64,000 bases of DNA from contig NZ_SNWA01000001.1 in NCBI RefSeq assembly GCF_004361815.1, positions 682,001 to 746,000 on the forward strand, read 5' to 3'. Below the pieces are notes generated by a model, which saw only the letters and a program-made list of their open reading frames with translations, ran no database searches and was not told where the DNA came from. A program made the position numbers and the translations under genes. This document shows, in pieces, positions 39,100 to 60,895 of this stretch (the first letter of the stretch is position 1; every line of letters starts with the position of its first letter). The stretch comes from Paraburkholderia sp. BL10I2N1 (lineage in GTDB: Bacteria > Pseudomonadota > Gammaproteobacteria > Burkholderiales > Burkholderiaceae).

Positions 39100-40346
39100 G
39101 TAGATCGTTGCATCAAAGTCGTTACATATTAAGCCACGCCGAGGTCGACCTTTTTCCAGCGGAAGACAACCGGTGAGGCATTGAATTCCTCGATGCCCCT
39201 CAGAATGCGCTCCTTCAGTTCATCGATCGATTTGACCCGGATGTGGCGAAGGAAAGTGCGGGCCATTTTGGAGAAGGTGCATTCGACCAGATTAAGCCAG
39301 GAGCCATGCTTGGGTGTGTGAACGTACTCGAAGCGCCCGGGGCGCGAGGCGAGATAGGCCATGGTCTGCCTGGAGATGTGGGCCGAATGGTTGTCCAGCA
39401 CCACGCGGATGATGGCCTCGCTCGGATAGTACTCGTCCAGGCGCTTGAGCAGCGCGATGAACTCCACACTGCGGTGGCGGTCCTCGACGTTGGCGAAGAT
39501 GTGACCCGAGTGCAAGTCGATTCCGGCGAGAATCGATACCGTGCCCCGACGCACATACTCGTAGTCGCGCCCGACGGTTGATGCCTTGCCCGGTACCGGG
39601 GGCAGATCCGGCGCGGTCAATCCGATCGCCTGAATACCCGGCTTCTCGTCGACGCTGACGGTATAGATGGGGTTGGGTCGCGCATCATGAACGGCGCCCT
39701 CCCGGTAGATCGAGACATCCCGGTAGACCATCAGGACTTCCTGCATCTTGCGGTCAAACTCCGGGTCCCGTTTTTCCAGGTAGTAGCGAATCTTGTGGGG
39801 CTTGATCTCGTTCTCGTTGAGGATGCGCCACACGGTGCTCTTGCCAGCGTTGGCCAGGCGAGCGAATCCAGCGGCCTCGGCTCCTTCAGATACAAACCGC
39901 GCCAGTGCGGAGATGCTCCACAACTCGGCCGCCAGGCCCTGATCCTTGGGCTTGGTGCACGCGATGCTCACCACCCAGGCTTTGGCTTCATCGCTGATCT
40001 CGGGTTCATGCGGCCGGTGGTACCTGTCTTTCAAACCCGCTTGCACACCTGCTGCCAGCGCCTTGTCAACGCTGCGATAGATCATCGGACGACTGAACCC
40101 GAGCTGGCGTTGCAGCTCCGTGATCGAAGTGCCCGCGGCGTAGCCCAACAGCACCTTCGCCCGTTCGACTTCGCGCGCGGGCGCTGTCCTCGATCCAGCA
40201 AGTTCCTTGAGCGTCGTCGTCTGCTCCGGTGTAAGCACCAGCGCCGCACGTTTGGACTTCCTCGCCATCGTCACCTCCGTCAAGAGTTGCGAACGAAACG
40301 AGGCTATTATCGCTTATTTAGTAACTGTATTGATGGAACGAACTAC
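39100..40346 (-). mobile_element. IS630-family insertion sequence (complete, 1,247 bp)
   Basis: Terminal inverted repeats GTAGATCGTTGCATCAA (left, 39100 inward) and GTAGTTCGTTCCATCAA (right, read inward from 40346) match at 15 of 17 positions. The element is flanked by a TA duplication (39098-39099 and 40347-40348), the hallmark of IS630/Tc1 elements. It carries one intact transposase gene. The target was CTAG within the intron RT gene. Confidence 0.93.
39129..40283 (-). CDS. IS630-family transposase
   Basis: A 384-residue transposase. It has N-terminal helix-turn-helix domains (ITELQRQLGFSRPMIYRSVDKALAAG) and a DDE catalytic domain with the first Asp in TVSVDEKPGIQAIG, the second in VVLDNHSAHIS and the Glu in WLNLVECTFSKMART. 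It is full length and uninterrupted, so the element could still move. Homologues are sometimes a single ORF, as here, and sometimes two frameshifted ORFs. Confidence 0.94.
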   Translation of the reverse strand: MTEVTMARKSKRAALVLTPEQTTTLKELAGSRTAPAREVERAKVLLGYAAGTSITELQRQLGFSRPMIYRSVDKALAAGVQAGLKDRYHRPHEPEISDEAKAWVVSIACTKPKDQGLAAELWSISALARFVSEGAEAAGFARLANAGKSTVWRILNENEIKPHKIRYYLEKRDPEFDRKMQEVLMVYRDVSIYREGAVHDARPNPIYTVSVDEKPGIQAIGLTAPDLPPVPGKASTVGRDYEYVRRGTVSILAGIDLHSGHIFANVEDRHRSVEFIALLKRLDEYYPSEAIIRVVLDNHSAHISRQTMAYLASRPGRFEYVHTPKHGSWLNLVECTFSKMARTFLRHIRVKSIDELKERILRGIEEFNASPVVFRWKKVDLGVA

Positions 40347-41787
40347 TAGTAAATAACCGTCGATGTTTGCTCAATGCCCGTCTCGGTCTGAACGTAAAAC
40401 CGAGGAACGTAAACTGCACGTTCGGATAAGTGCCAGTGCGCTTACCGTCCTTGCAATACACGATCTTAGACTTCTCCGGATGCATCGTCAGACCACACTC
40501 TGCCAGCCGCACTTCAATCGCTTGCATCACGGCTTGTGCCTGCGCCAGACTGCGGCAGTGAACCACCGCGTCGTCGGCGTAGCGCGCAAAGGGAGACTGC
40601 GGCCATGTCCGCTGCATCCAGCTATCGAACGCATAGTGCATAAACAGATTCATCAAGATCGGGCTGACCACACCGCCCTGGGGTGTACCCCGCATCCGGG
40701 GCAGACTCGCCCCCTCCGCAGTTTCGAACGGAGCAGTCAGCCACCGCTCGATGTACAGCAGGATCCAGCCTTCCTTGATGTGGTGTCGCACCGCCTTTAA
40801 CAACAACGCATGATCAATCTGGTCGAATGCCGCCTTGATGTCAAACTCAACAACCCAGTCGTATTTCCAGCAACGCGTACGCGTCACGGCAATCGCCTGT
40901 TTCGCCGACTTGCCCGGCCGATAACCATAAGAATCTTCATGGAATATCGGGTCGAGTGTCGGCTCGATCATCAGTTTGACCACACTTTGCGCCACGCGAT
41001 CAGATACGGTGGGAACCCCCAGTTTTCTCGTGCCGCCCTTGGCTTTCGGAATCTCAACCTGCTTCACCGGCGGCGGGAAGTACGACCCCGACGACATCCT
41101 GTTCCATAGCTTGGACAGATTTCCCGAAAGGTTCTGCTCGAACATGGCGATGGTTTCATCATCCACGCCCGCAGCGCCGCGATTGGCCCTCACCAACTGG
41201 TACGCTTCCCACACGACCCGCTTCGCAATGCTGTACGGTTTCGTTGATGTCATGTCACTCATCCCCACAGCGCAGGTTGGTGACCTTCGTCAACAGGATA
41301 ACGCCGCCCCTTCGCTCCACCTTCATTACAAAGGCTTCAGCACTACTACGGGCGGCTCCGCCCCTCACTCCGGCATCGGTATTCATCCTCATGGTGTCTG
41401 CCATTTGTCTTTTCCCTTTACATCCGAAGCAAGGTTCTCACGTTCCATACCGAAGCCTGTATTGAGTTCATGCCGCCTTTACACCGGCTGCCATCGGGTC
41501 CGTAATCAGGTGTCGTCCCGACTGATCCTGGAGCAAACTTACGACCCCAGTTTTGACAGCGCCTTTAAATAAGTAACGATGCGTCATCGGACGGTTCGCT
41601 TTCGCTCATCTGCTCAACACGTACCTGCCACCCTCGACGGGTGACTTTTCCACAGTCGCTCACCACCACGCCTTTTGGACGCAGCAGCACCGGGCGGTTT
41701 GAAGCCTGCTCCTGAAAGCCGACTTCGGGAGGCCTACTCCCATCTTCAGTACAGCACCGCAGGCTCTCGCCTACGTTCGTGACACAC

Positions 41788-48555: not shown

Positions 48556-49680
48556 TCAGGGGACAGCCAGCTTGTGCCGCTGCGACACGATGGCCTTCGC
48601 CAGTGCCATGAAAGGCCGCTCGATCAGGTGGAAGCTGAGCGTCGCCACCACGATGGAGCCGCAGAGCGCGATCAGCATCACCCACGCAAGCGGCAGCGAG
48701 GCGTTGAGCAATTTGATCGCCGCAATCAGAATCGGTATGTGCCACAGGTAAAGGCTGTACGAGATGTCGCCAAAGAAGCGCGCGACGTTGATTCTGAGCA
48801 GACGTCCAGCGTTCGCTGAGTTGATCGCGGCGAGCATCAGCACGGTGGCGGCGAAACCTTGCAGACATTCGACGACGCTGCCGATCCAGAAGGGCGTCGT
48901 TGGGCTGGTTCGCAGATAGTAGATGGTGAGGAAAGCTGCCACCGCTACGGCGCGTCTGAACGCGACGCGCTTTGCAAGAAACCACTCGCTTAGCACTTGA
49001 CGGTGCGTCGCCAGGAGAATGCCAAAGACAAACACGGGCACATATTCGACCGTGCCGGCAATGCTCGGCGCGATGCCATCCAGCAGTATCGCCAGTGGCA
49101 CCATCGTCAGGGTGACGGGGATCACGAGCGGAAGCGCCCGTCTCGACGCAAATGCGACCAGCAGCGGAAAAATGATCGAGATGCGCATCTCGTGAACCAG
49201 CGACCAGACCACCGGATTCACGCGCTCGGTATCGAATGACCCGATCAGTAACAGATGGCTCATCACCACATCGAGAGTCGGCGCGGGTTGTTGCGCCGAC
49301 TCGTGATACCAGACGCTCAGGCCAGCATCGTTGAAGCCGGGCAATGCACTTGCCATCACACAGGCCGTGACGATAGCCAACCAGTAGGCTGGCAGGATGC
49401 GCAGGATTCGCCTGACCAGATAGTTGCCGTAGGACATCCTGCGCCCCCCCAGGAACGCCTGTGAGAGGACGAATCCGCTGAGCGCAAAGAACAGGAGAAC
49501 GGACCCGTGTCCCCCGAGGAGCACGTGCAACGGCGTGTATTTCAGCAAGACAGAAAGCCAGCCGCTGTGCAACGTGACACCGCTGTAGAACTGCGGCAGG
49601 ACAATCAGAAAATGCGTACTGACCACGATCAGTGCGGCGATGCCACGAAGCGAATGCAGCTCGGCGTAATTGGTCTTCAC
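48556..49680 (-). CDS. Acyltransferase 3 family membrane protein (polysaccharide O-acyltransferase)
   Basis: A 374-residue protein with about 10 membrane helices. The N-terminal ELHSLRGIAALIVVSTHFLIVLP contains the RG and conserved His of acyltransferase 3 (OafA-like) enzymes. LVRRILRILPAYWLAIV carries the Arg/Pro motif. It ends in SFHLIERPFMALAKAI, also conserved. It would acetylate or otherwise acylate the polymer in the inner membrane. It is convergent with the polymerase gene. Confidence 0.9.
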   Translation of the reverse strand: MKTNYAELHSLRGIAALIVVSTHFLIVLPQFYSGVTLHSGWLSVLLKYTPLHVLLGGHGSVLLFFALSGFVLSQAFLGGRRMSYGNYLVRRILRILPAYWLAIVTACVMASALPGFNDAGLSVWYHESAQQPAPTLDVVMSHLLLIGSFDTERVNPVVWSLVHEMRISIIFPLLVAFASRRALPLVIPVTLTMVPLAILLDGIAPSIAGTVEYVPVFVFGILLATHRQVLSEWFLAKRVAFRRAVAVAAFLTIYYLRTSPTTPFWIGSVVECLQGFAATVLMLAAINSANAGRLLRINVARFFGDISYSLYLWHIPILIAAIKLLNASLPLAWVMLIALCGSIVVATLSFHLIERPFMALAKAIVSQRHKLAVP

Positions 49681-53643: not shown

Positions 53644-54790
53644 CTATGCCGTGATGGCCGGGCTGTGTTCAGCAGTCGCGCGATGCGTGAAGCGTCGCAC
53701 AAGGGTCGCCCGCACCGGCCGCTCGATCACGCAAAACACGAGCACGCTCGACAACACCAGGCCGAACAACAGCGGCAGCCCACTGTTGTGATCCATGCCG
53801 GAAATCGCGGCGAGATGCATGAGTGGTACGTGAATCAGATAGAGGGAGAAGCTCGCCTCTCCCAGCAATACCAGCGGCCGCATACTGAGCAAACCCCACA
53901 CAGGTCGCTTCTGGACGGCAAGCCCCCCAATCAGCAGCGCAAAGCATGGCGACAGCAGGTAGTACGCCGGTTCTACGGGACGCCCTACGAGCAGCAGGCC
54001 GATTACGACCAAAGCGATCGCCGCTGCGACCCTCCCCTTGTGATCCGCCTGGCTGGAGCCAGCCAGCGACGCCCGGCAATATCGCTCGGCAGCAATCCCA
54101 AGTACGAACTCGAACAAATGCGTTAGCGGCCATTGCGAGATTAAGAATCCGCTGCGCGACGGCGCCAGCAGCTCGTGCGCCGCGACGACCCACAGGCCCT
54201 GCGCACAGAATCCCGCGATAAGCAGCAGGGCCCGCTGCGGCCAGGTCAGTCGCGCGATGAACCGCACCAGCAGCGGAAACATCAGATAGAAAAAAACCTC
54301 GCATGAAATGCTCCACGCCGGTCCGTTCCACGGCTGATTGACCGTTGCAAACGGCAGCCACGCGGTCAGACAGAGCAGTTGCGCGAGCAGACTGGTGATC
54401 AACGGCAGCGTCGGATTGCCCGGTATTCCATACCATTCGAACAGATGTGTCTTGTCGTCCGAAATCAACAGGACCGCGGTCACGGGCGCCGCCAGCGTGA
54501 GCGAAACCAGCAGCATCGGATAGATCCGCGCGAAGCGCGCCACGTAAAAGCGGCGCAGCGCGTCGCGATTGAAGTCGTCGCTGTAGTTGTGCGCAAGGAT
54601 AAAGCCCGACAGGACAAAAAAGAACGTCACCGCAGGCCGGCTGTCACCGGCGACCCAAAGCACTGGCGCCGGGAAATGCATGAAGCCCATGACCACCAGA
54701 TGCGAGGTCACCACCCACAGCGCCGCAAAAAAAACGGACGCAGGTCAGCGCGGGCAGTGCGCTGCGAGACTCGCGTGACGTCGATCTCAT
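53644..54790 (-). pseudogene. Acyltransferase 3 family gene, out of frame at a T8 tract (possibly phase-variable)
   Basis: The main frame (53644-54714 and upstream) encodes an OafA-like O-acyltransferase: VVTSHLVVMGFMHF (conserved His), FFFVLSGFILAHNY, VARFARIYPMLL, and CVIERPVRA near the end. Its N-terminus is in a different frame. From the ATG at 54790, with an AAAGG site upstream, MRSTSRESRSALPALTCVRFF reads normally into a run of eight T (A8 on the plus strand, 54727-54734). Seven T would continue as RFFAALWVVTSH, the expected family N-terminus. In the main frame a TGA lies just upstream of the tract (54747-54745). The gene is therefore off in this sequence and could switch on by loss of one T. 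Confidence 0.85.
54727..54734. repeat. Eight-base homopolymer at the frameshift point
   Basis: A8 on the plus strand (T8 in the acyltransferase coding direction) at codon 19-21. Seven bases would restore the reading frame. Homopolymers of this length are prone to slippage during replication or transcription. Confidence 0.92.
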
Positions 54791-54866: not shown

Positions 54867-56048
54867 TCAGGGGCCCGCAGCCAGGGCAAACGACTCGCCT
54901 TCCAGAACGCGCAGCAAGTCACGCGACATCGCATCGACGGTGAATCGCGCCTTGAACAGATCGCGTGCCCGCGCGCTCATTTGTGCGTGGCACTCAGTAT
55001 CCAGAGTCAGCCAACGGCGCAGATTCTTCTCGGTGCCCTCCACCGTGTCGGCGGCAACGAAGCCAGCCCCATCCGCGTCGACCTCGCGCCAGATGTTCAC
55101 CTTGTTCGAAATGAGCGCCGGGACGCCGCAGCCTAACGCCTCGGCCACCGCTACGCCGAAGTTCTCCTGGTGCGAAGGCAGCACGAACGCCTCGCTCGCA
55201 TAAAAGGCGCCCCACTTGAGCGGGCCCTGCAACATGCCAGTCCACGTGATGCGCTGCGCGACGCCGAGTCTCTCCGCCTGCTCGTGCAACGTCGAGCGCC
55301 ACCCGGCACTGTCCGGGCCGGCGATCACGAGGTGGGCGTCGCCATCCAGCCCGGCGACGTTTGCAAAGGCACTGATCAGCAGATCGCAGCCCTTCTTCTC
55401 GTGGATCCGGCCGAGAAACAGGATCACGCGCTTGCCCCGCAACTGCGGATATTCCAACAGGAAACTCTCCCGCAATTCCACGTCGTTCTGCGGTGGCGCG
55501 CTGGTGCCGTAGGTCGATACCGCTTCTGTGGCGCGATACAGCCAGAACGACTGACGCGCCAGCAGGCGCTCGTCTTCTGTCGTGAACAGCACCGCGCGCG
55601 CATCGCGCAACACCCGATATTCGGCCCACGGCCAGTACAGCCATTTCTTCAGGTGCTTCAGCGCATACGCCCGCTTGAACCAGGGATCCAGCATCCCGTG
55701 CGGGTAGACGTAATACGGCACGTCGACCTCTCGCAGGGCACGCCACGCACCGAAGCTGTGGTATTGCCAGAGGCCGTTGACAATGACTGCGTCGAATTGC
55801 GATGCGTGAGACTGCAGCCATGGCACGAGGCGCGGACAATACCGGTAGTTGCCGCGCGATGGTCCCAGCGCATGAACCGGAAGCGGGAAGTCCTGCAGAA
55901 ATGTCGCACCGGGGTCGTCGAGCGTCACCACTTCGACTTCGTGCCCCATCTCCATCAAGGTCACGCCGCCCTGGCGCACGCCTTCCGCCGGGCCACCCGC
56001 CTTCGGATCAAGCGACGCGAGTAAATGGAGAATTCTCATCGCCGTCAT
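54867..56048 (-). CDS. GT4-family glycosyltransferase
   Basis: A 393-residue GT-B enzyme. It starts MTAMRILHLLASLDPKAGGPAEG, a WcaI/WcaL-like acceptor-domain N-terminus. The donor domain contains RVILFLGRIHEKKGCDLLISAFA, the WTGMLQG stretch and the signature AFVLPSHQENFGVAVAEALGCGVPALIS (EX7E type). The start at 56048 overlaps the GMC oxidoreductase stop (ATGA), so the two genes are coupled. Confidence 0.93.
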   Translation of the reverse strand: MTAMRILHLLASLDPKAGGPAEGVRQGGVTLMEMGHEVEVVTLDDPGATFLQDFPLPVHALGPSRGNYRYCPRLVPWLQSHASQFDAVIVNGLWQYHSFGAWRALREVDVPYYVYPHGMLDPWFKRAYALKHLKKWLYWPWAEYRVLRDARAVLFTTEDERLLARQSFWLYRATEAVSTYGTSAPPQNDVELRESFLLEYPQLRGKRVILFLGRIHEKKGCDLLISAFANVAGLDGDAHLVIAGPDSAGWRSTLHEQAERLGVAQRITWTGMLQGPLKWGAFYASEAFVLPSHQENFGVAVAEALGCGVPALISNKVNIWREVDADGAGFVAADTVEGTEKNLRRWLTLDTECHAQMSARARDLFKARFTVDAMSRDLLRVLEGESFALAAGP

Positions 56049-57790
56049 TTCTTGCCGAATGGCAGCAGCGTGCGGCTGGAATCGAGCGACATCGCTGCCC
56101 ACGTCAGTTCGTCGTCCGCCGGCACCCGCGGGCCATCGTGCCCGTCGCTGATCCGGTGTTGCCCCCCCATGCCTGCCTGCGAAATTCCCAGCTCACTGGC
56201 GATTCGTCCAGCGAGGCGCAGTGCCAGTGCAACAATCGTGATGGTCGGAAAATTCGAACCCACCGTGGGGAAAACCGAACTGCCAGCGATATACAGGTTC
56301 GTCATCCCGTGCACTCTGCAGTTTCGATCGACGACACCCTCTCTGGGCGAGTCGTGCATGCGCGTCGTGCCCATATGATGCCAGGTGCCTTCGAGTTCCG
56401 CTGGCCAGGAACCGCCCTCGATCGGCGGATCCAGCGTAACCTGGGCCACGCCGCTGCGCTCTAGCTCCTCGCCGACAAGTGCGAAAGTGCGATCGAAGGT
56501 ACGCTGCACATTCGACGTCAGATGCCACGCGACGCGCACCCGGTTCATGCCGAGCCGGTCTTTCTGCGTCGAGAGCGTCACGCGGCTATCCGGATTCGGC
56601 TCCGCTTCGGCGATGGCTTGCATCTTGACCTGCCTGATCAATGGGCGGGGATGCAGGATGCGGGTCACGCCGAAGCCTAGCGTGTCGACCGGATGCGCAA
56701 CCATCGTCGCGAGATCGCGCGCTGGACGCCAGCCGGGCTGATCCTTGTGCAGCAGCGCCTGCTTGCAGCGAATCAACGCTTCGGCCGCGTTGCTGCCCTC
56801 GCCGCTAAACAACGAGAAGAACCAGACACGCGCATTCAGCAAACGCTCCCGCTTGAGCAGTTCAGGGGTTAGCGCGAATTGTGACGCAATGCGCGTACCG
56901 TGCGCTGACACCGCGTTGTTCTGGTAGTGGTACTTGATGTCGTACAACTTGTCGCGCGACCATGCCCGGTTGAAGCGAACGGTCGCCGACATCAGCCGCG
57001 GGTGATCCATATAGAAGCGACCGACGAGATCGTTGCCGTTGCCAAGACCGGCCGGCTGGACCTTGTTCGAAGCCAGCAGCAGGCGCGCATTCTCGATGCC
57101 GCCCGTGGCCAGCACGAAAATCTTCGCGCGTACGCTGATGCGACGACCGCTCAACGTCGCAACCTGCACCTTCGACACTGTGTGTGCCTCATCCGGGGTC
57201 TCGATGTTGACCACGTTTGCATACAGGTACACGCAGACCCGCCGCGATTGCCCGAGATCCTTCCGATAGAGCTTGCCAAAGCGCGCTGGCGGGCTGAACT
57301 GGGAGATCATATCGCGCACATTGCCGGTGACAAGCGGCACGCGGCGCACATCGCGCCGCCCGATCGAGGTTTCCCAGAACTGCGGATCGAAGTTGTTGGG
57401 GCCAAGCCTCAGCACCGCATGGGTGCGCGCGTAATACGGTGCGAGCTCGTCCAGACCGAACGGCCAGCCGCTATGCGCGACCCAATCGCGCTTTTCGAAA
57501 TCGAACGGGTCGAGCGGGCGGCACCACCCACCCCAGCAATTGCTGCTACCGCCCAGATAGCGGCTGCGACTACCGTCCGCGAATTGATAGGGCAAGCCCG
57601 CGTTCTCACCACGGTACAGATCGCGGGTCTGCTCATCCGGCTTGAAGCCGCCGCTCTCGAGCACGCACGTGTCGATCCCGAGCTTTTCCATTTCCAGCGC
57701 AAGTGTAATGCCTGCGGCACCGGCGCCAATGATGCACACTGCGCTCTCGACGCAGGAGCCTTCCTCGATAGTGCGGGTATCAATGAACAT
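56045..57790 (-). CDS. GMC-family FAD oxidoreductase in the polysaccharide locus
   Basis: A 581-residue flavoprotein with the FAD motif VCIIGAGAAGITLALEME, GGSSNCWGGWCRPLD, the C-terminal ELEGTWHHMGTTRMHD (catalytic His) and NLYIAGSSVFPTVGSNFPTITIVALALRLA. GMC oxidases/dehydrogenases act on alcohols and sugars. No signal peptide is evident. Here it may oxidise a hydroxyl of a sugar or of an acyl decoration. The start at 57790 (MFIDTRTIEEGS) gives a normal N-terminus. It precedes a glycosyltransferase with a 4-base overlap. Confidence 0.9.
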   Translation of the reverse strand: MFIDTRTIEEGSCVESAVCIIGAGAAGITLALEMEKLGIDTCVLESGGFKPDEQTRDLYRGENAGLPYQFADGSRSRYLGGSSNCWGGWCRPLDPFDFEKRDWVAHSGWPFGLDELAPYYARTHAVLRLGPNNFDPQFWETSIGRRDVRRVPLVTGNVRDMISQFSPPARFGKLYRKDLGQSRRVCVYLYANVVNIETPDEAHTVSKVQVATLSGRRISVRAKIFVLATGGIENARLLLASNKVQPAGLGNGNDLVGRFYMDHPRLMSATVRFNRAWSRDKLYDIKYHYQNNAVSAHGTRIASQFALTPELLKRERLLNARVWFFSLFSGEGSNAAEALIRCKQALLHKDQPGWRPARDLATMVAHPVDTLGFGVTRILHPRPLIRQVKMQAIAEAEPNPDSRVTLSTQKDRLGMNRVRVAWHLTSNVQRTFDRTFALVGEELERSGVAQVTLDPPIEGGSWPAELEGTWHHMGTTRMHDSPREGVVDRNCRVHGMTNLYIAGSSVFPTVGSNFPTITIVALALRLAGRIASELGISQAGMGGQHRISDGHDGPRVPADDELTWAAMSLDSSRTLLPFGKK

Positions 57791-58095
57791 CCCGATCGCT
57801 CCTCGATGGATTCCGTCGCGGCTCCATCCGCGACGCTCTCCAATCATCGGTCACGCAAACAGTCGTGATCCGACAAGAACGCCGCGTGACCCGCCACACT
57901 GCGCACGCCAATCTGAGGAAACGACATGCTTCCTGACCGGGCGCATCGGACTGATCCGTCCTAAGGTGCCGCAGACAATGCCGTTTGATCCCGCCAAGAT
58001 GGGGTGCTGACGCGCCAGGTTGCGACACCGGGATTTGAGGTCTCTTAGACTTTGCGCTGAGATCGCTCAACTCTGAACGATATGCCGAGGCAAGC

Positions 58096-59079
58096 ATGCA
58101 CAAGATCCTTAGTCCAATCGGGACGGAAATTGAGATCCCAGAGGTTGCCGCCGAAAACGGGACGCTGTTCGACCTGACGGACCTCGCGGGCGCGAGTCGT
58201 TACTATGAGGAAAACGGGTACGTCGTCGTTCGCGGCGTGGTCACCACGGGTATGTGCGATGCCATCCGCCACGCATTCGACCAGACCGTCAAGCGCTATC
58301 CGGGTTACATCTATCGACAGGCCACCGCAAACCCTGAAAAGAACCGGATGAACGAGCATGGATTCGTGATGAATCCGCTGCTCAATCTTCAGTCTCTCAG
58401 TGATGCGGACTTTGCGTCGCTTAAAGGACGTGCAGTGAAGGTGTTTGCGAGCGAGCCCATCAAGGCCATCAATAGAGCGTTGTTTGGCGAAGAAGGCAAG
58501 CTGGTCCAGAGCATGTATTTCGAAGGAAACTCCGAGACATGGCCGCATCAGGACACGTATTACCTCGACAGCGAGAACATTGGCACCATGTCGGCATGCT
58601 GGTATGCGCTTGAAGACATCGATGCGGGAGCCGGTCGCTTCTTCGTGATCCCTGGCAGCCACCGCATCGACATGGCGAAGAACGGCAAGGACTTCGACGT
58701 GGCGTTCAATCACGGACGTTACAAGGAACTGATCCTGAAGGTCATTGCCAGACACCAGCTTGAATTCCGGGCACCCTTCCTGAAAAAAGGCGATGTCCTG
58801 TTTTGGAACGCCAAAACCATCCACGGCAGTCTGCGGACGACGCGACCGCAATTCTCGCGTAGTTCGCTGACCTCGCATTTCATTCCGGCATCTCATCGGT
58901 TTCTCCAGTTCCAGTCGAAGATCAAGCCGCTCAATCTTCGCGAATTCAACGGAATGGCATTTCACTGCCCGAAGGACATGGACCGTCTGTCAAGCCGGGT
59001 CGTGCTGGGTGTCGAAACGATGTTCCCGAAGACGTTTCAAATGACGAAGAAGCTGGCGATCAAGGCGCTGGTGAAGTGA
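58096..59079 (+). CDS. Phytanoyl-CoA dioxygenase (PhyH) family protein
   Basis: An Fe(II)/2-oxoglutarate-dependent oxygenase fold of 327 residues. The metal triad is visible as His151 and Asp153 (WPHQDTYY) and His243 (TIHGSLRTTRP), with the 2-oxoglutarate-binding Arg in the latter segment. PhyH members hydroxylate acyl chains or small molecules. In a polysaccharide locus it may modify a sugar or acyl group. It starts a rightward run with the WcaF-like and acyltransferase genes, and its stop overlaps a possible GTG start of the next gene. Confidence 0.9.
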   Translation: MHKILSPIGTEIEIPEVAAENGTLFDLTDLAGASRYYEENGYVVVRGVVTTGMCDAIRHAFDQTVKRYPGYIYRQATANPEKNRMNEHGFVMNPLLNLQSLSDADFASLKGRAVKVFASEPIKAINRALFGEEGKLVQSMYFEGNSETWPHQDTYYLDSENIGTMSACWYALEDIDAGAGRFFVIPGSHRIDMAKNGKDFDVAFNHGRYKELILKVIARHQLEFRAPFLKKGDVLFWNAKTIHGSLRTTRPQFSRSSLTSHFIPASHRFLQFQSKIKPLNLREFNGMAFHCPKDMDRLSSRVVLGVETMFPKTFQMTKKLAIKALVK

Positions 59080-59719: not shown

Positions 59720-60895
59720 GTGACCCAAGACGACCGGCTAGTTGTACTGGACCTGGGTAGAGCAGTGGCGATACTTGGGGTAGTTGCCGTCCATCTCTGC
59801 TCATGGGTGCCGGCGTTACCGTCCTGGCTGTCGCTGCTGGCCGGGAGTGGCCAATATGGGGTTCAGCTCTTTTTTGTCATCAGCGCGTTCACGATCTGCA
59901 AGACCCTCGCCGATGACCGGAAAAAAGGTCTGGACACAGCCCCCCTGATCCGACGGTTCTATCTGAAGCGCTTCGCCCGGATTGCCCCGCTGTACTACCT
60001 TGGCATTGTGATCTATGGCGTGCTCGATCGGGTTGCGATCAGAATCAGCCATGTGCACGTGCTGAGCGCGCACGGCACGTGGGACGTGCTGGCGAACGCG
60101 CTGTTCGTTCATCAATTCGTCCCGGGTGCGATCAACAGCGTCGTGCCAGGGGGCTGGTCTATCGGCGTTGAAATGGCGTTCTATGTCGTAGCGCCCGCGC
60201 TGTTCCTGATGTCCAGAACGCGGCGGGGCCTGTGGCTTGTCGCTGCAACCACGCTTGCGGTCTGCTACGGGACTGTCTGGTTCGCCCTACGCGGTGCCAG
60301 TACCAACGCTGTCATCAACAATACGTTTCTGTACTACTGGCCACCCACCCAGTTCCCGTGTTTCATACCCGGCATCATGCTGTGGAGCTATTGCAGAGAA
60401 AAATTCCAGCACGAGCGTCCGGACCTCCACATGGTGGTTCTCGCCGGCGTCGGCGTGACAGCCGGTTATGCGGCCTTGCTGGCCACAGGCGCCGGGCTGA
60501 ATCTATCGTACGCTATCACTCCGTTGATAGCCGCAGCAACGGGTGCCTCCTTGCTGCTGCTATTCGCGGCCTCTCGCGAAGCGTTGACGAAAATTCGGAT
60601 CGCGCAAAAACTTGGGGAAAGAAGCTATGGCGTGTACATCTGGCATTTCCTGGGCATTTTCATCTTCCGGCTCATTGGAAAGACGTTCGGCGCCCAGTTG
60701 CAAGTGATTCCGCCCGTCTTGCTGTTCGCGCTTGGCGTGACGCTTGTTACGCTCCTTGCGTACGCGCTGTCTACCTGTTCGGAACGCCTTGTAGAAAGGC
60801 CGGCATCGCGATGGATGCGCGAAAAGCTGTCGGGCGGTCCAGCCCCAAAGACGCCAGCAGGCAGTCGCCCGGCTACGTCGCCAGCCACCGATTGA
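59720..60895 (+). CDS. Acyltransferase 3 family membrane protein
   Basis: A 391-residue protein with about 10 membrane helices and the OafA-type pattern: LVVLDLGRAVAILGVVAVHLCSW (conserved His), LFFVISAFTICKTLADD, YLKRFARIAPLYYLG, and SERLVERPASRWMREKL at the end. The start is a GTG (59720); a nearby ATG at 59707 is out of frame. It is a third candidate O-acyltransferase of the locus. Confidence 0.9.
   Translation: MTQDDRLVVLDLGRAVAILGVVAVHLCSWVPALPSWLSLLAGSGQYGVQLFFVISAFTICKTLADDRKKGLDTAPLIRRFYLKRFARIAPLYYLGIVIYGVLDRVAIRISHVHVLSAHGTWDVLANALFVHQFVPGAINSVVPGGWSIGVEMAFYVVAPALFLMSRTRRGLWLVAATTLAVCYGTVWFALRGASTNAVINNTFLYYWPPTQFPCFIPGIMLWSYCREKFQHERPDLHMVVLAGVGVTAGYAALLATGAGLNLSYAITPLIAAATGASLLLLFAASREALTKIRIAQKLGERSYGVYIWHFLGIFIFRLIGKTFGAQLQVIPPVLLFALGVTLVTLLAYALSTCSERLVERPASRWMREKLSGGPAPKTPAGSRPATSPATD

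Follow-up and report, generated by a model that had tools for sequence, protein, structure and literature searches.

The closest described systems are surface-glycan acyltransferases and genes that are interrupted at homopolymers. OafA and OafB of Salmonella are AT3-SGNH O-antigen acetyltransferases with R-X10-H and RXXR motifs, and both R14 and H25 of R-X10-H and the RXXR motif of helix 3 are reported to be essential in OafA (PMC7448272). Switching of Salmonella oafB is described as epigenetic, rather than as a result of slippage (PMC9558356). Haemophilus influenzae oafA contains a frameshift in the original Rd sequence, and on/off switching of this gene among isolates is reported (PMC9558356). 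Listeria monocytogenes inlA is reported to be silenced by a change in the length of an A/T tract (PMC2831843), whereas rescue of a broken frame is described for Citrobacter rodentium tssM1 (PMC4256274). Here we describe an acyltransferase gene that shares features with each of these systems.

An AT3 gene in two frames

The window, that is, the whole stretch of 64 kb that was analysed, corresponds to C1:682001-746000 of a four-contig genome of 9.2 Mb and has a GC content of 62%. A previous interpretation of this DNA (the sequence-only reading) had placed the junction of two acyltransferase frames exactly at a homopolymer. This observation is confirmed: the two frames of a split AT3 gene meet at T8, at 54734-54727 on the minus strand (Table 1). 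The short frame is preceded by AAAGG, with 8 bases between this sequence and ATG 54790. It encodes 21 residues of the family sequence, MRSTSRESRSALPALTCVRFF, then leaves the family sequence, runs on out of register after T8 and ends after 48 codons with a stop at 54646-54644 (-). The first common start in the long frame is GTG 54714 (-). P0001 (381 aa, JGI source, encoded on a 2.3-kb contig), which is 94% identical and is the closest protein among the matches listed, spans both pieces. Its identity with the short frame supports the earlier view that a correct acyltransferase N-terminus is read from ATG 54790, and 336 of the 356 residues of the long frame are also identical, in agreement with the view that the remaining 350+ residues are intact in the other frame. 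The glycosyltransferase of the window is present in the protein database as P0121. The window's own version of the acyltransferase is not found among the matches listed in this database, which fits an annotation without a protein call for the split gene.

T8 is the sole run of at least eight bases within the window. In the whole genome it gives 194 overlapping matches on both strands. Because approximately one T8 per 64 kb is expected from this number, such runs are not rare. The unusual feature is the coincidence of T8 with the frame break, not the tract itself.

The long frame alone matches PF01757 with 101.7 bits (curated cut-off, 31) over positions 33-324 of the 326 positions of the profile. 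PF01757 is the sole family matched, and a fused SGNH domain is not found in the long frame. Judged from this match, the gene encodes an AT3 (PF01757) acyltransferase, so that its earlier designation as an O-acyltransferase gene holds. Arg 19 and His 30, which constitute R-X10-H, are invariant in a 13-protein alignment of intact relatives (alignment A1). These two residues of helix 1 are not located within one protein here: Arg belongs to the short frame, His to the long one. The RXXR motif is present in the long frame (ARFARIYP), and R85 and R88 are invariant in alignment A1. A second copy of the gene within the genome was considered and rejected, as the second-best match shares only 35% identity.

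The acyltransferase gene is the third of a GMC oxidoreductase-glycosyltransferase-AT3 series, and this order is kept in G065 and G126, the latter of which encodes P0004 (NCBI name, Paraburkholderia sp. BCC1885). Because G126 belongs to the same genus as the window, we assign the window to Paraburkholderia. Nearby genes encode a methyltransferase, a hexapeptide transferase, an MBOAT protein, an AlgX/GDSL-type protein, two further AT3 proteins and a MOP-type flippase-like protein that scores below the curated cut-offs. This gene set fits an exported polysaccharide, and we infer that an exported sugar polymer may be the substrate of the acyltransferase.

Other genes of the region were noted as well. 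A 682-aa protein encoded at 50077-52125 matches neither Pfam nor NCBIfam families at 0.001, and two adjacent homologues of this protein (~50% identity each) are encoded in locus L068 of Trinickia dabaoshanensis. A PhyH (phytanoyl-CoA dioxygenase-like) gene at 58096-59079 lies between the hexapeptide and GMC genes; at a threshold of 1e-10, neither the G065 nor the G126 stretch of 20 kb contains a match to it. At 39129-41268, some kb from the polysaccharide locus, transposase-like and reverse-transcriptase-like open frames are recognised by eye.

Table 1. Positions within the window of the split gene, its parts and the associated genes
Feature	Position	Strand	Remark
N-terminal piece of AT3 acyltransferase, 21 codons from ATG 54790	54727..54790	-	19/21 residues identical to P0001
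T8 homopolymer, junction of both frames	54727..54734	-	
Remainder of AT3 acyltransferase, second open frame, 366 codons (356 from GTG 54714)	53644..54744	-	PF01757
Codons 17-18, Cys-Val here, Ser-Ile in relatives	54737..54742	-	comparison with relatives
Predicted transcript stem after the tract, weak	54640..54740	-	z about -2.7
GMC oxidoreductase, first in series	56045..57847	-	
Upstream glycosyltransferase, family 4 / group 1 domains, intact	54867..56102	-	76 bases before ATG 54790
Second AT3 acyltransferase in the locus, intact	48556..49680	-	possible redundancy
Third AT3 acyltransferase in the locus, intact	59720..60895	+	possible redundancy

The tract in relatives and the age of the break

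Homologues of the gene were searched for in 144 genomes of the genus with a match threshold of 1e-40, and 28 genomes match, the own genome included. The gene forms an open frame of 390-582 aa in all of the other 27 matched genomes, as compared with 366 aa here. A scan with the 13-protein alignment was also carried out, in which 80 named loci of 495 were kept; 9 of them were used for analysis of the tract and 8 for that of the gene order. The 36 homologous loci compared below consist of the 27 from the genus search and these 9 of the 80 named loci, and some of them may represent the same genome in two collections. Within codons 17-24, the maximum length of a single-base run is 2 in 9 loci, 3 in 18 loci, 4 in 6 loci, and 5, 6 and 7 in one locus each, and a run longer than 7 is not found at the tract position in any of the 36 loci. 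From this comparison, the T-run is a product of the chance spelling of Arg-Phe-Phe codons in a few members, not a conserved device. A scan of genome contigs with a single protein confirmed no relative. When DNA was searched across 25 relatives as well as the own genome, the only matches beyond the own genome were 35-37 bases long and came from two genomes.

The long frame contains neither stops nor indels, and its replacement rate is not clearly raised. When the changes in this frame are polarised by seven relatives, the counts for the window and P0001 are 4 to 3 by the strict rule and 5 to 5 by the majority rule. With BCC1885 as the sole outgroup, the counts, all of which are small, are 6 to 4 in the acyltransferase and 6 to 5 in the neighbouring glycosyltransferase, a slight tilt against a recent break. 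The acyltransferase differs from that of the JGI relative at 20/356 sites and the glycosyltransferase at 20/393, provided that both JGI proteins are from one organism; the corresponding values for BCC1885 are 113/356 and 86/390. Judged from these values, the acyltransferase does not appear to be accelerated. A long-dead pseudogene was rejected on the basis of the replacement rate in the long frame, and the gene is probably not an old dead one.

The short frame differs from P0001 at two residues, Ser17, which is replaced by Cys, and Ile18, which is replaced by Val, and both are located at most 8 bases from T8. Ser17 is kept in all of the 36 homologous loci and Ile18 in 35 of them. The frequency of replacements is 2/21 in the short frame, where both lie beside T8, as compared with 4/356 in the long frame (Fisher p 0.04, post hoc). 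The sequence-only reading had seen no decay elsewhere in the gene; this holds for the long frame, in which no clear decay is found, but the replacements at residues 17 and 18 were overlooked. Simple slippage does not account for these two replacements. They would be explicable by a complex local mutation, by a local sequence error or by early decay.

Explanations for the frame break

Frame changes were surveyed with a seven-state codon model in 824 kb of the 9.2-Mb genome, consisting of 38 stretches of 20 kb and the window. Artificial single-base indels are detected by the survey criterion in 108 of 200 cases, by its gapped form in 110 of 200 and by a looser criterion in 119 of 150. Of the 129 direct frame changes on the same strand, 126 lie at most 45 bases from the stop of the upstream gene, as ordinary junctions do, and the other three have no homopolymer longer than 4 nearby. 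Short-gap frame changes add 59, two of which also satisfy the filter and likewise lack a nearby run longer than 4. The five candidate frame changes without long homopolymers are at L169:19417, L150:16116, L150:8538, L152:7059 and L170:16258. Of the 83 homopolymers of at least 7 bases in the 824 kb, 20 are intragenic in a single frame, 20 lie at gene edges, which are beyond the screen, and 43 are intergenic; a frame change is detected across none of the 83. The screen is blind within ~40 codons of a start and near gene ends, and T8 at 54734-54727 itself is scored as an edge, because the model misses the 21-codon piece. Among 27 distinct tracts of T8 or longer (first 1.4 Mb of C1; 30 loci of the 194 matches), three are intragenic with an unbroken frame, and no same-strand frame change is found at any of the 27. 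The lack of a homopolymer-linked frame change in the 824 kb suggests that the sequence is generally clean, and makes a systematic homopolymer error of the assembly unlikely.

The explanation we prefer, to which we give an even chance, is that a real indel of one base, recent in evolutionary terms, arose at a chance T-run and detached the beginning of the AT3 gene from the remainder. This explanation builds on the split, the family of the protein, the conservation of the lost residues and the absence of other disruption. Such an indel would remove the beginning of transmembrane helix 1 and, with it, the essential Arg. Translation from ATG 54790 would follow the family sequence for 21 residues only and end after 48 codons, and a product started at the internal GTG, before which no ribosome-binding site is evident, would be devoid of the essential Arg and roughly the N-terminal half of predicted helix 1. 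The split gene would therefore give no active enzyme. The polymer would then be short of one acyl decoration, as a strain-specific loss, unless its enzyme is replaced by one of the other two AT3 proteins encoded in the locus. The base that makes the run T8 is known from one assembly of one strain, and an artefact, or a gene that is still in use, would account equally well for the clean long frame.

Homopolymers are a usual site of sequencing and assembly errors, and a one-off error of this kind at T8 would mean that the organism itself carries an intact gene. Such an error is rather unlikely. It is consistent with the intactness of the matched relatives and with the long frame, which shows no clear relaxation, and the two replacements beside T8 could belong to a poor stretch of sequence; however, none of the 83 runs mentioned above is associated with a frame change, though the rate near gene starts is beyond the screen, and the candidate frame changes (three direct, five with the gapped form) have no run longer than 4 nearby. 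The proposal of the sequence-only reading, a true phase-variable contingency locus in which the tract length switches at a high rate and turns polymer acylation on and off, is very unlikely, because it is supported neither by the 36 homologous loci, which have no run longer than 7 at the tract position, nor by the 824-kb sample, in which no off-phase tract is found outside the 20 runs at gene edges. Tracts longer than 7 are also described as generally not over-represented (PMC2831843). The location of the tract and the clean long frame fit such a locus, and AT3 surface acyltransferases are reported to be phase variable elsewhere, as in H. influenzae oafA and, by an epigenetic mechanism, Salmonella oafB (PMC9558356). 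Homopolymer switching in Paraburkholderia was not found in the titles and abstract starts of the literature on phase variation in this genus, and no such locus was found in a listing of the literature on Burkholderia phase variation, homopolymeric tracts and exopolysaccharide.

Some full-length enzyme could also be made without any change in DNA, if the polymerase slips on T8 or tRNA-Phe shifts by +1 on UUUU, so that the gene is rescued at a low level. This rescue is distinctly unlikely. The long frame, which is not clearly accelerated, agrees with it, a precedent is reported for C. rodentium tssM1 with a run of 11 A (PMC4256274), and the stem predicted just 3' of the tract offers a weak lead (z -2.67, with 1 of 200 shuffles as good; -2.76 on repeat). 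However, the longer fold at 54650-54790 has a z of -0.27, and when this gene and three neighbours were scanned in 198 sliding stretches, z -2.5 was reached only once, in another gene. The stem is absent from the four relatives in which it was sought (z 0.26, 0.54, -0.47 and 0.64), and a conserved frameshift stimulator was rejected for this reason. Neither the tract nor the stem is conserved, and a Shine-Dalgarno-like sequence is not seen by eye directly 5' of the tract. For a large share of bacterial genomes, A/T runs are reported to be evidently avoided at a length of nine (PMC1088944), whereas the run is eight here. Programmed transcriptional slippage is characterised by an A/T run of ~9 or more in a conserved context, and this run is shorter and unconserved. 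There is a small chance that T8 and the strain-specific stem together represent leaky recoding or a slow reversible switch. In that case only some of the cells or transcripts would give rise to the acyltransferase, and acylated chains would be interspersed with unacylated ones in a mosaic polymer. It is extremely unlikely that a start at GTG 54714 or 54711 yields a working, N-terminally shortened enzyme. An open frame of 356 codons with GTG exists, but its product would lack the Arg that is reported to be essential in OafA (PMC7448272) and, according to hydropathy, roughly the N-terminal half of predicted helix 1. In addition, no purine-rich sequence is seen by eye directly before GTG, and the match to PF01757 starts only at profile position 33.

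Significance and comparison with known systems

If the indel is real, the gene would represent a clean natural loss of a probable polysaccharide-decorating enzyme, and its intact relatives would allow the role of the acyl group to be asked. A single homopolymer break in a single assembly is not a switch. If the gene is rescued by slippage, a Paraburkholderia surface-glycan enzyme, encoded in a window of 62% GC, would join the recoded genes.

This locus resembles C. rodentium tssM1 in that a homopolymer is located at the frame break, but the tssM1 tract is A11 with rescue demonstrated (PMC4256274), whereas the tract here has eight T's and shows no sign of rescue. It resembles L. monocytogenes inlA in the putative silencing by a change in the length of an A/T tract (PMC2831843), although the poly(A) frameshifts of inlA are repeated natural events in a population and the event described here is seen in one genome. 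Unlike Salmonella OafA and OafB, the protein has no SGNH fusion that we could find, and its Arg and His are in different frames; like them, it has an AT3 domain and the R-X10-H and RXXR motifs (PMC7448272). On/off switching among isolates is reported for H. influenzae oafA, whereas the tract here is not conserved and is known from one genome. Nevertheless, as is reported for oafA, a gene for an AT3 acyltransferase, probably of a surface glycan, is frameshifted in one sequenced strain and intact elsewhere (PMC9558356).
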